IMG/VR virus record: IMGVR_UViG_3300020194_000756
Coordinates: 1 to 24,308 of that record
Length of the DNA: 24,308 nucleotides
From: a virus
Strand: one strand, 5' to 3'
The notes below the pieces were generated by a model, which saw only the letters and a program-made list of their open reading frames with translations, made no database searches and was not told where the DNA came from. This document shows, piece after piece, positions 2,256 through 17,525 of this stretch. Within the stretch, counting starts at the first letter, position 1. Each line of letters begins with the position of its first letter. Both the position numbers and the translations under genes were made by a program.

Positions 2256-2746
2256 TACAATCTCCTCATAATATATGTATCTTCCTTATCTGCGCTATAT
2301 TCTTTCATAGTTCCTTCCTCAATAAAACCTAATGACTTGGCCCAACGAACAGCACGATGATCATTACATTTTACTGTTATTTGTATACGATGTAAATTAA
2401 ATAATATCTGACAGCTATCAAAAAATGCAAATGCACCTTTTGTCATAGCTATTGGGTATCTTCTGGATTCCTGAGTAAACATAGACCACGCCTCACCCAC
2501 TCCTTTCCAGTGAAACATAACACCAAACACAGCGACAGGACGACGATTGACAAACGCAGTAATACTAGGACCGCAGTAAGATTGAAACACAAGAAACCGT
2601 TTTCTATCTTCAATCGTAATTGATTGAGATTCATACTCATCTATTCCTTTAAAATTATCTAAATGGCCTTCATGAAATGGTAGATAATATCCATTTTTAA
2701 CTTCAGGCATTGCTTTGAGTATTTTATCAACGTGAGTTAAAAACAT
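2255..2746 (-). CDS. GNAT-fold acetyltransferase-like protein, T7 gp13-like
   Basis: About 163 residues. The C-terminal half has the GNAT pattern: an aromatic-rich strand pair (PVAVFGVMFHWKGVGEAWSM), a helix, then LHRIQITVKCNDHRAVRWAK and SLGFIEEGTMKEY, as in acetyltransferases where the N-H-A-xxWAxxLGF segment contacts CoA. In T7-like phages the internal virion protein gp13 has this fold and supports morphogenesis. The gene follows and slightly overlaps terminase, consistent with a morphogenesis role. A GTG at 2755 is an alternative start; neither start has a clear Shine-Dalgarno. Whether it acetylates anything cannot be judged from the sequence. Confidence 0.75.
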   Translation of the reverse strand: MFLTHVDKILKAMPEVKNGYYLPFHEGHLDNFKGIDEYESQSITIEDRKRFLVFQSYCGPSITAFVNRRPVAVFGVMFHWKGVGEAWSMFTQESRRYPIAMTKGAFAFFDSCQILFNLHRIQITVKCNDHRAVRWAKSLGFIEEGTMKEYSADKEDTYIMRRL

Positions 2747-4289
2747 CGAAGTCACTATTTACTACAGTTTGTGAAATTAATGTATTCTGTGATAAGGCGG
2801 ACTTGGTCATCCGCTTATGTTCTCCGCCACCTAAAAGCAGATAACCAAATGCATCGCCAATGTGAGAATGTTCATTCTTATTTGGACTGTCTCTAAATCT
2901 TTCTTGTCCAGCACCAACACTCACTCGTTTAAAATGATAGCCTCCAGCGAGTGATTTACGTAATCTTTTGCAAGAAGTGTGTAATACAAGTCCAGGCTTT
3001 CCAGCAATCAATCGTTGCATCGGAGCAGCTGCTGCTTCACGTCTGACTTGGAAATTGTTTGATGGTGTAGGTTGTGCGCGCAAGCCTAAGGTACGTAAGT
3101 AATCAAATGCAGTGACTTCATAGATCGCATCTCGTTGCATACCCGCTGGGTCGCCCCATACCAGTATTTGTGCTTTAGGATATTTAGCATTTATTTCAGC
3201 TAAAAGTTGTGTGCCAAATCTTTCAAGACCCATATCTTCTGTCACAATTTCATGTAAGATTACCCAACGTCCATTATTGAGTCGTTGCCCAATTGCAGCG
3301 GCTGGTGTCAAACCAAAGTCAAGACCAATATGAATAGGTAGAGTGGGATCATAATCAACCTCAGAACTACTCATCATGTTGTCATCATACTCAGGCCATA
3401 CAGGCTTACCTTCTTGCACGTAAGTAAACTTACCTTCAGCATAACAACGAATCCAATCTAAGTTCTTACCACCCAACATTTGAGCATAATATCCGCCAGG
3501 TAAGTTCGATACGTTTTCTGCTTTAGGATTAATGGTCCACCAACGACCCCCTGAAAAAATATGATCATTCGCTTCTGGATTCTCAGGTAAATTTTCAGGA
3601 CTCACTTCGATGACACCGCCTGGCTGATGAAAGAAGTCCCAAGCATATTTACCTGTGATCGGCTCTTTTTGGCTTAAACGAAACCACCAATGGTCATCGT
3701 CCATGGGGTTAGTATCCATCCACACTCCATGCCAAGTCGGGCCACCATCCCGCTGTGTAGGATAGCGACCAACCCGATGAGTAAGACCATCAATAACAGC
3801 TTTTGGAAGTTCTCGTGCTTCATTGACCCATGCTCCTGTAAGTTCAAGTGACAATAATTTACGTACATCTTTAGGTTGGTCCAATGCCAGGAAAATCACT
3901 TCACAGTCTATACCCGCAGCATCACCGCGGGACGGGAGGCGAATGTGATGAGTGATTGGAGGTGTGTATAGCATCGGACCAAAAGTGTTTTCAGGAAATA
4001 ACTCTTGCCATGTCTTAATGGTTGTCGTCTTAAGTTCTGGGTACGAGTTCCTGACAATTACAAAGCGAGTATAGCGAATCCCATCAATCGGTGATGGTTT
4101 CTGTCTGACAGCTCTCATCATGATCTCAGCAGCACACGCATAGGATTTACCAGATCCAACAGGCCCCATAAGTCCGCGAACAAATGCATTACTTTGGAGA
4201 AATTTATAAGTTGTCCGTGCGCTACTAAAATCCAGATCAATGCCTGGACCCGCTAACTCTTTTTTACTACGTTCTTTTTTATTGCTCAT
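2727..4289 (-). CDS. terL: Terminase large subunit
   Basis: A 520-residue DNA-packaging motor. Walker A is GPVGSGKS at residues 42-49. The Walker B-like strand with its acidic end is LTGAWVNEARE at about 150-160. The C-terminal RNase H-like nuclease is marked by IHIGLDFGLTPAAAIG near residue 340, VWGDPAG near 390 and HSHIGDAFGYLLLG near 480, which are the usual acidic positions. Length and motif order are complete, so both ATPase and headful or site-specific cleavage activities are expected. The small subunit lies three genes upstream, with three small ORFs between them, an unusual spacing compared with the commonly adjacent terS-terL pair. Confidence 0.96.
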   Translation of the reverse strand: MSNKKERSKKELAGPGIDLDFSSARTTYKFLQSNAFVRGLMGPVGSGKSYACAAEIMMRAVRQKPSPIDGIRYTRFVIVRNSYPELKTTTIKTWQELFPENTFGPMLYTPPITHHIRLPSRGDAAGIDCEVIFLALDQPKDVRKLLSLELTGAWVNEARELPKAVIDGLTHRVGRYPTQRDGGPTWHGVWMDTNPMDDDHWWFRLSQKEPITGKYAWDFFHQPGGVIEVSPENLPENPEANDHIFSGGRWWTINPKAENVSNLPGGYYAQMLGGKNLDWIRCYAEGKFTYVQEGKPVWPEYDDNMMSSSEVDYDPTLPIHIGLDFGLTPAAAIGQRLNNGRWVILHEIVTEDMGLERFGTQLLAEINAKYPKAQILVWGDPAGMQRDAIYEVTAFDYLRTLGLRAQPTPSNNFQVRREAAAAPMQRLIAGKPGLVLHTSCKRLRKSLAGGYHFKRVSVGAGQERFRDSPNKNEHSHIGDAFGYLLLGGGEHKRMTKSALSQNTLISQTVVNSDFDVFNSR

Positions 4290-12459: not shown

Positions 12460-13182
12460 ATGAAACAAGTAAATCAAGTTTATAAAACCAATGATTACGG
12501 TATGTTTAAATACATTAACGGGAATCGTAACATCAATAAAAGTAATTTAAAGAGACTGATTAAGTCCATGAAAGAAAGGTACATCCCTGTGCCGATTATT
12601 GTCAATGAGAAGCATGAGATCATTGATGGTCAACATCGCTTTGAAGCGGCAAACTTTCTAGGCTTTGATGTACACTTTATCAAGATCAATAAGTTAGCAT
12701 TAGATGAGGTGCGCAGACTGAATGAGAACATGGCTAACTGGAACAATGGCAATAGACTACATTCATTCTGTGCGCTAGGCCATCCAGAATACATTAAGTT
12801 TAAACAGTTCATGCAAGAGACTGGATACAACTACAGTGCATGTATTGCATTGCTCGGTGGTAGTCCAACCCGATCAGGTGAATTAGGTAGGCAGTTTAAA
12901 TTTGGTACATTCAAGATCAAGAATTACAATCAAGCTTTAGAACATGCAAGACAGCTCGATCAGATTGGTCAATACTATCCAAACTATAAGAAGAGTCACC
13001 TACTAAATTGTATGATCAAACTATTCCATCACCCAGACTACAATCATAGTCGAATGATGCAGAAGTTAAAAGTACAATCTCATATGTTGCCGCAGAGTGG
13101 AGGGGAAGATACTTTCAGGAATGCAATCAGAGATATTTATAACTTCAAAGTGTCTAAAGCACAGAAGGTAGGATTCTTTTAA
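12460..13182 (+). CDS. ParB/Srx-like domain protein
   Basis: A 240-residue protein. Residues 1-85 have the ParB N-terminal-like fold: RNINKSNLKRLIKSMKERYI, then PIIVNEKHEIIDGQHRFEAA with the diagnostic DGQHR (56-60). These domains bind nucleotides, cut DNA, or act in DNA modification, depending on the family. The remaining 155 residues are helical and include NENMANWNNGNRLHSFCALG, with no ParB HTH, so a partition role is unlikely. It ends the first rightward operon: TAA at 13182 is followed at once by a strong terminator. It starts with AAGGAAAAC upstream. Confidence 0.85.
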   Translation: MKQVNQVYKTNDYGMFKYINGNRNINKSNLKRLIKSMKERYIPVPIIVNEKHEIIDGQHRFEAANFLGFDVHFIKINKLALDEVRRLNENMANWNNGNRLHSFCALGHPEYIKFKQFMQETGYNYSACIALLGGSPTRSGELGRQFKFGTFKIKNYNQALEHARQLDQIGQYYPNYKKSHLLNCMIKLFHHPDYNHSRMMQKLKVQSHMLPQSGGEDTFRNAIRDIYNFKVSKAQKVGFF

Positions 13183-13183
13183 C

Positions 13184-13210
13184 AAAGAAGGGGCGCAAGC
13201 CCCTTTCTTT
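13184..13210 (+). terminator. Bidirectional intrinsic terminator
   Basis: AAAGAAGGGGC / GCCCCTTTCTTT around a GCAA tetraloop (core GGGGC 13190-13194 / GCCCC 13199-13203), with one bulged T. On the plus strand it ends the ParB-like gene. Read leftward it lies right after the pqqA stop and ends in TTCTTTGTT, so it serves both strands. Confidence 0.85.
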
Positions 13211-13280
13211 ATTTGTTACATACGTACATTGTAACTTCGAAACCGAAACGCATTTCAGTTGCTGCTGGTTTAGTCCACAT
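13209..13280 (-). CDS. pqqA: PQQ precursor peptide PqqA
   Basis: A 23-residue peptide encoded from ATG 13280 (GGAG at 13290-13287) to TAA 13209. It begins MWTKPAATEMRFGFEVTMYV and ends C-N-K. This is the full length and pattern of PqqA (MW-KP, D/E-L/M-R, G-x-E-V-T-x-Y), including E15 and Y19, the two residues that the radical SAM enzyme PqqE cross-links and that become pyrroloquinoline quinone. PqqB, C, D, E and F are not in this window, so host enzymes would process it. It has its own promoter and terminator, and it opposes its two neighbours. A viral pqqA would increase substrate for PQQ and hence for PQQ-dependent dehydrogenases such as methanol dehydrogenase, which is inference. Confidence 0.93.
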   Translation of the reverse strand: MWTKPAATEMRFGFEVTMYVCNK

Positions 13281-13302
13281 AATAGTCTCCTAGTTAATTG
13301 AG

Positions 13303-13330
13303 ATTATAGTATGGCAGATATACATGTAAT
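13303..13330 (-). promoter_or_regulatory. Dedicated pqqA promoter
   Basis: On the minus strand: ATTACA (-35, 13330-13325), a 16-base spacer, then consensus TATAAT (-10, 13308-13303). The expected start is about 13296, leaving a short leader with GGAG. The consensus -10 is the best in the window and suggests strong expression. Confidence 0.7.
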
Positions 13331-13962: not shown

Positions 13963-14185
13963 AGTGGGTGACCTTAGGTTTTGCATTAACGATGTACATA
14001 TCCATCCCTTCAGCATGTAAAAGAATAAAATCTGTCTCTTCATCTTCCGAGAACATAATCTTTACCATCGATTGATCACCTTCTTCTAAGACTTCGATGT
14101 TCCAAATCTTTTTACCAATGACTGAGTCAATTGCATTTGCTTGTTCGGAATCTAATTCAGAAATTACACTATCGTTTTCGTCCAT
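13961..14185 (-). CDS. Small acidic hypothetical protein (74 aa)
   Basis: The product begins MDENDSVISELDSEQANAID, contains KIWNIEVLEEGDQSMVKIMF and ends MYIVNAKPKVTH. An acidic N-terminal helix is followed by three or four predicted strands. No family is recognised. It overlaps the end of the metallophosphoesterase gene by 22 bases and is the last gene of the late leftward block before the convergent junction. Confidence 0.65.
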   Translation of the reverse strand: MDENDSVISELDSEQANAIDSVIGKKIWNIEVLEEGDQSMVKIMFSEDEETDFILLHAEGMDMYIVNAKPKVTH

Positions 14186-14868
14186 CGTCCACCATCCTTA
14201 AGTATCATTGGCATGAGTTTAGGTTGCCCCTCTATAATCATACCACAACCGATGATGAATCTGGATTTAAAATTCTTAGCATATTCAAATGCTAATTCTT
14301 TTTGATTGATGAGACATCCTGTTTGCATACCCCAGACAAGCTTGTCAGGATTAGAATAGTATTCAATCTTAAACTTAGAATGATAATGCCCCTGGACAGT
14401 ATTCATTCCATATTGCTGGGCCACCTTCATGACGTCAGCTGACATCCCATGCGTAAAGAAACAGCGCTGACCATCTGATAAAGTAACAGTGAAATCATCC
14501 ACCCATTTCCATCCAGGCCCTACTTGTAAGAATTCATTGTAGCTTTTTAGATACTCCAAACTCAAGCCATGGGCTACAGCTCGACGATAGATAAGTGATG
14601 AATGGTTTGAATGCACCAAGGTCATTTCAGGAAAAATTTTCTCTAACTCTTTTACATATTGTCTAGTAACTCTAAGTTCATCGCCAGGTGACTTCAAGTC
14701 TGGGTGATGATTATGAAAACTGATTGAGTGTTGATCGATCTCATCTCCAATATTGACAACGAGATCTGGTTTATATTTCTTCTTGAGTTGAGTTAAGAAT
14801 TCAAATGCATCAGGATGATGATAGGGTATATGCAAATCTGATATAACCAATACCGACTTGTAACTCAT
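14164..14868 (-). CDS. Calcineurin-like metallophosphoesterase
   Basis: A 234-residue hydrolase with the complete metallophosphoesterase ladder: VLVISDLHIPYHH (D11, H13), VVNIGDEIDQH (D42), LVHSNHSS (N88, H89), FFTHGMS (H140) and VQGHYHS (H161, H163). These bind two metal ions. Substrates of phage members include phosphodiesters, cyclic nucleotides and DNA ends, so no specific one is claimed. It is preceded by a 37-base gap with TATAAT-like sequence (around 14890-14900 on the minus strand) and the SprT-like gene. It might counter host nucleotide signalling, which is speculative. Confidence 0.9.
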   Translation of the reverse strand: MSYKSVLVISDLHIPYHHPDAFEFLTQLKKKYKPDLVVNIGDEIDQHSISFHNHHPDLKSPGDELRVTRQYVKELEKIFPEMTLVHSNHSSLIYRRAVAHGLSLEYLKSYNEFLQVGPGWKWVDDFTVTLSDGQRCFFTHGMSADVMKVAQQYGMNTVQGHYHSKFKIEYYSNPDKLVWGMQTGCLINQKELAFEYAKNFKSRFIIGCGMIIEGQPKLMPMILKDGGRWTKTIV

Positions 14869-16409: not shown

Positions 16410-17525
16410 CTATTTAAAGTATGGTCCTACTAACCATGTTACGGCACTGTATCGAGTTCCTGTTGTTACTGGCTCAACACCATGTATCATATAACTAGGA
16501 AATACTAACACAGTTCCTTTGCTTTGTGGTGGATAAAATACTCTACCATCAGCGTTAATAAAAAACTTACCACCTTCATAATCATCATTCAAAAATGCCA
16601 AGCATGTGAGCTTTCTTGTCTCTTCACTATGACTATGAAACGTATCTACATGTTGAGTGTAATGTCCTTCTGGTTTATATATTAATAACTCAGTTTGATT
16701 AGAATGAGTTATATGATATTGCCACCAATACTGGTTTGCATTTAATCCTGTTGATGTTAGTGTGGCACCAATGCCTACATTTTGTGGCAGTATAACTCTT
16801 TTAACATCTCTAATTGTTTTATCTATTTCTCCAGTATTGTTACCAATGTATGGTGGTTCTTTATTTATACTGTCTTGTGAGTATGTGTTAATTAAGTTAT
16901 TGCAAAAGTCATGAGACAAATGATTATCAAATACAGCACAATTAGTTAATGTTCGTTCAGTAAGTGTATTTTTAGAGACACCTAATGACTGACGTTTATC
17001 ATACTTCCATTCAGCATGTGGTCCATCAGCATCTACATAATGTAAGAATACTTGTGCTTGCCATTGACCTTCAGTATACTTTTCTCGCCAATGCTCAACT
17101 TCCATGCCACGATACAAAACGGCATCACCTACTTGCATATCTACTTTGTTACCTTCCATGTAGATAGACCATACGTCACCTTCAAAACCTAGTGTAATGG
17201 TTGCTGATATTTCACAGGCTGGTCTGTCTTTATGCTTTACAAGTTCGTCACCAGGAGCATATAATCTTGCGTATGAATAAGTTGGATATAATCTTTTACC
17301 ACAATGTTTTTCAAAGTGTGGTAATAAGTCTACTAACAACTGGTCAAATGTCTGTGTTCCATGTACAGCTTCTGACTTTGGGCATTGTATATCTTTTACT
17401 GTACGTCCGTTTACAACTAAATCTTTTAATGCTTGTGTTAATTCTGCACAGTTTTGTTCGTCTAAAAAGCTTTTTAAATGTACATAACTGTTTTGTTGAA
17501 AACTATCAATGCTTGTTTGATACAT
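16410..17525 (-). CDS. Tandem 2OG-Fe(II) dioxygenase
   Basis: A 371-residue protein with two jelly-roll oxygenase domains. Domain 1 (about 10-170): YARLYAPGDELVKHKDRPAC (H98-x-D100) and MEVEHWREKY (H145). Domain 2 (about 195-371): LLIYKPEGHYTQHVDTFHSH (H292-x-D294), LNDDYEGGKFFI, FPSYMIHGVEPV (H348) and TGTRYSAVTWL (R358 for 2-oxoglutarate). Domain 2 is complete. In domain 1 the usual Arg about ten residues after the distal His is not seen at the matching place (GQWQAQ). Such enzymes hydroxylate proteins or nucleobases; beside a tail fibre gene, virion or host-protein modification is plausible. Confidence 0.9.
   Translation of the reverse strand: MYQTSIDSFQQNSYVHLKSFLDEQNCAELTQALKDLVVNGRTVKDIQCPKSEAVHGTQTFDQLLVDLLPHFEKHCGKRLYPTYSYARLYAPGDELVKHKDRPACEISATITLGFEGDVWSIYMEGNKVDMQVGDAVLYRGMEVEHWREKYTEGQWQAQVFLHYVDADGPHAEWKYDKRQSLGVSKNTLTERTLTNCAVFDNHLSHDFCNNLINTYSQDSINKEPPYIGNNTGEIDKTIRDVKRVILPQNVGIGATLTSTGLNANQYWWQYHITHSNQTELLIYKPEGHYTQHVDTFHSHSEETRKLTCLAFLNDDYEGGKFFINADGRVFYPPQSKGTVLVFPSYMIHGVEPVTTGTRYSAVTWLVGPYFK

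Follow-up and report, generated by a model that had tools for sequence, protein, structure and literature searches.

Phages of methylotrophic bacteria carry a 23-codon pqqA gene that probably supplies PQQ precursor to the infected host

Introduction

In the pathway to PQQ, one PqqA peptide is consumed for each PQQ molecule made, and PqqB-E act as catalysts, so that adding the substrate alone would be a sensible route to more PQQ. The Glu and Tyr of PqqA are the residues on which PqqE acts together with PqqD (PMC10906245). According to work cited in PMC7936290, when single pqq genes were overexpressed in Gluconobacter, pqqA was one of those that raised PQQ more strongly. Published genomes of Methylophilaceae hold 3-12 pqqA genes and typically a single set of pqqBCDE (PMC4109929), and the host therefore itself raises the dosage of the substrate. 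In the OM43 group of this family, xoxF is always the top-abundance transcript (PMC5120137).

Viruses are already known to carry pqqA. A Lake Baikal population, VP_266, assigned to a methylotroph phage, encodes one viral PqqA and a viral methanol dehydrogenase (PMC7678222), and pqqA, pqqD and pqqE are among the virus-encoded genes of a reservoir sediment (PMC13188868). The locus described here is like VP_266 in that a virus PqqA is proposed to raise methanol oxidation in a Methylophilaceae host. VP_266, however, is one metagenomic, T4-like population with a methanol dehydrogenase of its own, whereas the pqqA of the present, small MEP301-type phage is on its own, recurs in all five cultured lineages examined and bears a signature of selection. 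What is new is thus not phage pqqA as a kind but its breadth, convergence, conservation and systematic omission from annotation.

Results

The window analysed (24,308 nucleotides, IMG/VR record IMGVR_UViG_3300020194_000756) is a 24-kb fragment of a phage genome. On its minus strand, an ORF of 23 codons plus TAA at 13209-13280 encodes MWTKPAATEMRFGFEVTMYVCNK (codons 13280-13212, stop at 13211-13209). The length lies within the ~20-30 residues of PqqA, W2 and P5 are both present in the N-terminal part, and the motif GFEVTMY, with E15 and Y19, fits E-x-x-x-Y in G-x-E-V-T-x-Y. The peptide scored 42.4 bits (E 6.3e-11) with Pfam PqqA PF08042 and 45.1 bits (E 5.8e-12) with the NCBIfam equivalog TIGR02107, about twice the curated bit-score cut-offs of 21.1 and 20, respectively. 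Because both scores exceed the cut-offs, and the profile search of 14 control genomes gave no match above cut-off, the ORF is more than a chance resemblance. It shares with the PqqA family its length, W2, P5, G13, E15, Y19 and above-cut-off scores, and differs in having no linked pqqB-E. Translation, both profiles and conservation in relatives (below) confirm that 13280-13209 is a phage-borne pqqA, in agreement with the original prediction of a minus-strand, 23-residue PqqA ORF with E15, Y19 and a ribosome-binding site, for which a profile search had been proposed as the check.

A Shine-Dalgarno sequence, AGGAG (13287-13291, minus strand), lies 6 nt ahead of the ATG and is found upstream of pqqA in 45 of 46 distinct relatives. 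Downstream, a bidirectional terminator-like hairpin (13184-13210) is common to pqqA and a convergent gene for a ParB-like protein (12460-13182, plus strand; PHROG 12305, E 2.7e-33). Three terminator-like calls were observed against 0.3 in shuffles, and a hairpin with a T-run follows pqqA in 40 of the 46 relatives. A sigma-70-like consensus scan also pointed to a tentative promoter-like element, ATTACA-16-TATAAT (10/12 matches; 13303-13330, minus strand), with the -35 at 13330-13325 and the -10 at 13308-13303. Such sites are no commoner in the window than in shuffles, and since a match of at least 9/12 stands upstream of pqqA in just 12 of 46 relatives, we treat the window's promoter as weak evidence. 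General among the relatives are the Shine-Dalgarno sequence and the hairpin, not the promoter. A search of the relatives for a conserved leader upstream of pqqA found nothing common except the Shine-Dalgarno sequence, and an Rfam scan of the window gave no match to a known RNA.

The original prediction had also placed the gene in a phage. Terminase, endolysin and virion protein genes are present in the window, and complete phage isolates carry pqqA. The terminase large subunit (2727-4289, minus strand) is 87.8% identical to that of MEP301 across 100% of the query; the calcineurin-like phosphoesterase (14164-14868, minus strand; PHROG 221, E 9e-65) is 75% identical to the MEP301 protein and 50-64% to those of pelagiphages; and the window and MEP301 have 17 genes in common. 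Judged by this similarity, the window belongs to a MEP301-type phage of OM43 (Methylophilaceae). A 34-kb relative (G014, locus L250), whose neighbouring proteins are 100% identical, has one pqqA and no PqqE.

We searched 50,697 phage records with the window peptide (tblastn, E<=10). Twelve matched: nine isolates of Methylophilales/Methylophilaceae phages, one Manatee Spring podovirus and two Acinetobacter-labelled contigs. The last two (Acinetobacter phage MD-2021a) were dropped as bacterial DNA labelled as phage; the one examined, CAKLQF020000010.1, contains pqqABCDE as a bacterial operon and resembles a piece of host chromosome. In Venkman, P19250A, MEP301, MEP401, MEP402, four Melnitz strains and the Manatee Spring podovirus the peptide is 73-96% identical to that of the window. 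Pelagiphages with a related phosphoesterase are not among the 12 records, which argues against SAR11 or Rhodobacterales as the host; of the hosts suggested beforehand, a marine methylotroph such as OM43 stands and these two do not.

The pqqA-carrying phages form five lineages with few common genes: the window and MEP301; Venkman and the Manatee Spring podovirus; P19250A; MEP401/402; and the T4-like Melnitz, which was placed by deposited taxonomy (Kyanoviridae), the others being placed by gene sharing. The claim covers these five cultured methylophage lineages; MEP431-434 and MG-MtP1, which appear in the taxonomy, lie outside it. In each isolate pqqA has its own ATG and Shine-Dalgarno sequence, and there is one copy per genome in 29/29 positive records. 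Degenerate DNA patterns for the 23-residue peptide located further loci, with the core EMRFGFEVTMY in more than 120 IMG/VR contigs among the matches listed. Further tblastn searches with an enteric-type and two alphaproteobacterial-type PqqA peptides returned no additional phage isolates, although the searched records are very rich in phages of Klebsiella and Pseudomonas, groups in which PQQ makers occur.

To avoid bias, relatives of the window were fetched through the neighbouring phosphoesterase rather than pqqA (80 loci). The gene is present in 61 of 77 informative phosphoesterase-bearing records, MEP301 and the window included, and absent from 16 (L267, L268, L274-L277, L279, L280, L285, L289, L290, L292, L293, L295, L296 and L326). 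Along the phosphoesterase tree the presence/absence label switches just three times, and the records lacking the gene group in one region, which also includes three carriers. Lenient tblastn detected no pqqA remnants in the 16, and two of them, of ~35 kb, have no pqqA anywhere. In the MEP301-type lineage pqqA is thus clade-stable and dispensable: a 16-record subclade of close relatives without it means that it is not essential. Where present, it is flanked by phage genes in syntenic relatives.

The 60 pqqA loci comprise 38 distinct sequences encoding 22 peptides, with pS 0.52, pN 0.083 and pN/pS 0.16, and the peptides vary mostly at positions 4, 6, 10 and 21. Our search expression demanded W, G, E and Y, so the invariance of these residues is partly by construction, whereas the low ratio elsewhere is not. 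These substitution patterns indicate that the phage PqqA peptide is under purifying selection. Loss of E15, Y19 or the reading frame in related phages had been named as evidence against the gene; instead the MEP301-like relatives that carry it keep the peptide, and the one subclade lacks the gene as a whole.

In a genome collection, the core pattern occurs mostly in Methylophilaceae, including OM43, and in some other betaproteobacteria, among the matches listed. The PqqA of the OM43-type strain LSUCC0665, MWTTPAATEMRFGFEVTMYVCNK, is one residue off the phage peptide. All 120 of 120 sampled Methylophilaceae genomes have pqqA, in 1-12 copies each, with three in the OM43 genome checked. The phage gene resembles the solo pqqA genes of this family (PMC4109929), which encode the same peptide, stand alone without pqqB-E, have the same kind of ribosome-binding site and are often followed by a hairpin; unlike them, it is not chromosomal but present once per genome among phage genes.

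The remaining machinery was sought on both sides. PqqE scored 520.7 bits, above cut-off, in an OM43 genome (G037), where ORFs of PqqC/PqqD-like size (judged on size only) lie beside it, and the LSUCC0665 genome encodes PqqE and XoxF. In contrast, none of 30 virus records had PqqE above cut-off, and the ORFs of the host's PqqE locus had no homologues in the viral stretches searched. This bears out the proposal that the phage gives the substrate only and leaves the enzymes to the host.

One viral contig of 72 kb, IMGVR_UViG_3300025120_009955 (positions 33989-38783, L383:13989-18783), encodes a full-length XoxF as well as pqqA (at 41890). Its XoxF is 87.5% identical to OM43 XoxF and has the DYD motif, and the pairing adds support for a role in PQQ supply. 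The contig also encodes a ribonucleotide reductase, a head maturation protease, a formate-dehydrogenase-like molybdopterin oxidoreductase and curli-related genes.

A few IMG/VR contigs have other PqqA types above the profile cut-off, some adjoining phage genes, and pqqA capture may extend beyond methylophages. In enterobacterial-type viral contigs (L394, L406, L388, L390, L392, L393, L397, L398, L404 and L405, several of ~40 kb) pqqA is close to one end, at a distance of 300-450 bp. Its neighbour in L394 and L406 is the start of a TonB-receptor-like gene, followed by phage-like genes, as if a prophage had interrupted the pqq operon by inserting directly behind pqqA; the enterobacterial contigs in IMG/VR probably carry host flanks. 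Alphaproteobacterial-like PqqA occurs in viral contigs L387, L395, L396, L399, L402, L407 and L408, above the TIGR02107 cut-off where tested, and in L395 the gene is near a T4 gp32-like gene.

The original prediction was that automated callers would miss so small a gene. Five isolate records show no feature at the pqqA position, and those of the Melnitz strains and the Manatee Spring phage have a 'hypothetical protein' there, on the opposite strand where checked. Two such antisense entries, QZI94879.1 (Melnitz MZ577097, 76100-76195) and UOF77531.1 (MW202481, 2067-2195), are probably false genes. Auxiliary genes are listed in the published descriptions of MEP301, MEP401/402, Venkman and Melnitz, pqqA not among them, an omission probably due to gene callers skipping 23-codon genes. 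A PHROGs search of the window found no family matching pqqA, which helps explain why the gene is absent from phage annotation.

Discussion

We propose, with a probability of about 0.8, that the phage copy of pqqA is functional and serves as a substrate-only auxiliary metabolic gene, sustaining the PQQ supply of the XoxF methanol dehydrogenase. The gene lies in a phage genome, has a host metabolic homologue and bears the mark of selection, three of the features by which auxiliary metabolic genes are recognized. In infection, a short phage unit that has its own ribosome-binding site and terminator would yield the 23-residue peptide. Glu15 and Tyr19 would be cross-linked by the PqqD and PqqE of the host, and a host protease and PqqB/C would then complete PQQ. 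XoxF, the main energy enzyme of OM43, would in this way be kept in cofactor as host transcripts fail. From the genomic evidence we infer that infected cells express the gene, that host enzymes process its product and that the phage gains by it, and a PqqA shortage in the infected host is assumed, since the OM43 genome checked already has its three pqqA copies.

Small phage proteins often inhibit host enzymes, and the peptide could act as a decoy that occupies PqqD/PqqE of the host, or its PqqF/G protease, slows PQQ synthesis and so shuts down host metabolism. Binding and processing are alike compatible with the present evidence, but an inhibitor would be expected to drop the reactive residues, and the E15/Y19 region and C-terminal NK resemble host substrates. 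In two phage systems, moreover, pqqA occurs together with a gene for methanol dehydrogenase (the 72-kb contig and PMC7678222), which points to supply, and we regard inhibition as quite unlikely. Nearly as improbable is that the PQQ, or PQQ-like product, made from the peptide serves a use other than methanol oxidation, for instance as a signal or antioxidant during infection. The redox roles of PQQ do extend beyond dehydrogenases; among isolates, however, pqqA was found only in phages of methylotrophs, and the many Klebsiella and Pseudomonas phages are without it.

Solo pqqA is plentiful in host genomes and would be easily captured, and one subclade of relatives lost the gene or never had it, as might be expected of a passenger, host DNA taken up by chance and without function for the phage. 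Such a passenger would not readily account for a pN/pS of 0.16 at high pS, for recurrence in five unrelated lineages with the ribosome-binding site and hairpin kept, or for the lack of pqqA among isolates infecting other hosts, and we consider this reading very improbable. Host contamination or a misassembled contig deserves hardly any weight: host flanks can occur in IMG/VR contigs, as the enterobacterial matches probably illustrate, but pqqA inside complete isolate genomes refutes this explanation, and in syntenic relatives the gene sits between phage genes.

Provision of precursor to XoxF thus remains the preferred reading. Cyanophage auxiliary metabolic genes such as psbA are phage copies of host genes that feed the main energy pathway. 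Phage pqqA is likewise host-derived and would feed the host's main energy pathway, but its product is a consumed 23-residue RiPP substrate, not an enzyme or a photosystem subunit. We lean, with some reserve, towards a wider view in which pqqA is near-universal and convergently kept in tailed phages of obligate methylotrophs, PQQ precursor generally limits infection of XoxF-dependent cells, and phages carry only the consumed substrate, in a gene that ranks among the smallest auxiliary metabolic genes known. If the proposal is true, a phage steers a cofactor pathway by adding a ribosomal substrate alone, and processing of the peptide would put part of the coastal methanol oxidation by infected OM43 cells under the control of phages. 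As a point against the proposal, the medium used for OM43 culture contained PQQ (PMC9004378), and isolates may therefore have been obtained with PQQ present.

A further protein of the window (16410-17525, minus strand; 371 residues) ends in a 2OG-Fe(II) oxygenase domain (PF13640, E 1e-16). Other OM43 phages are reported to have auxiliary genes of this class as well (PMC10580990).
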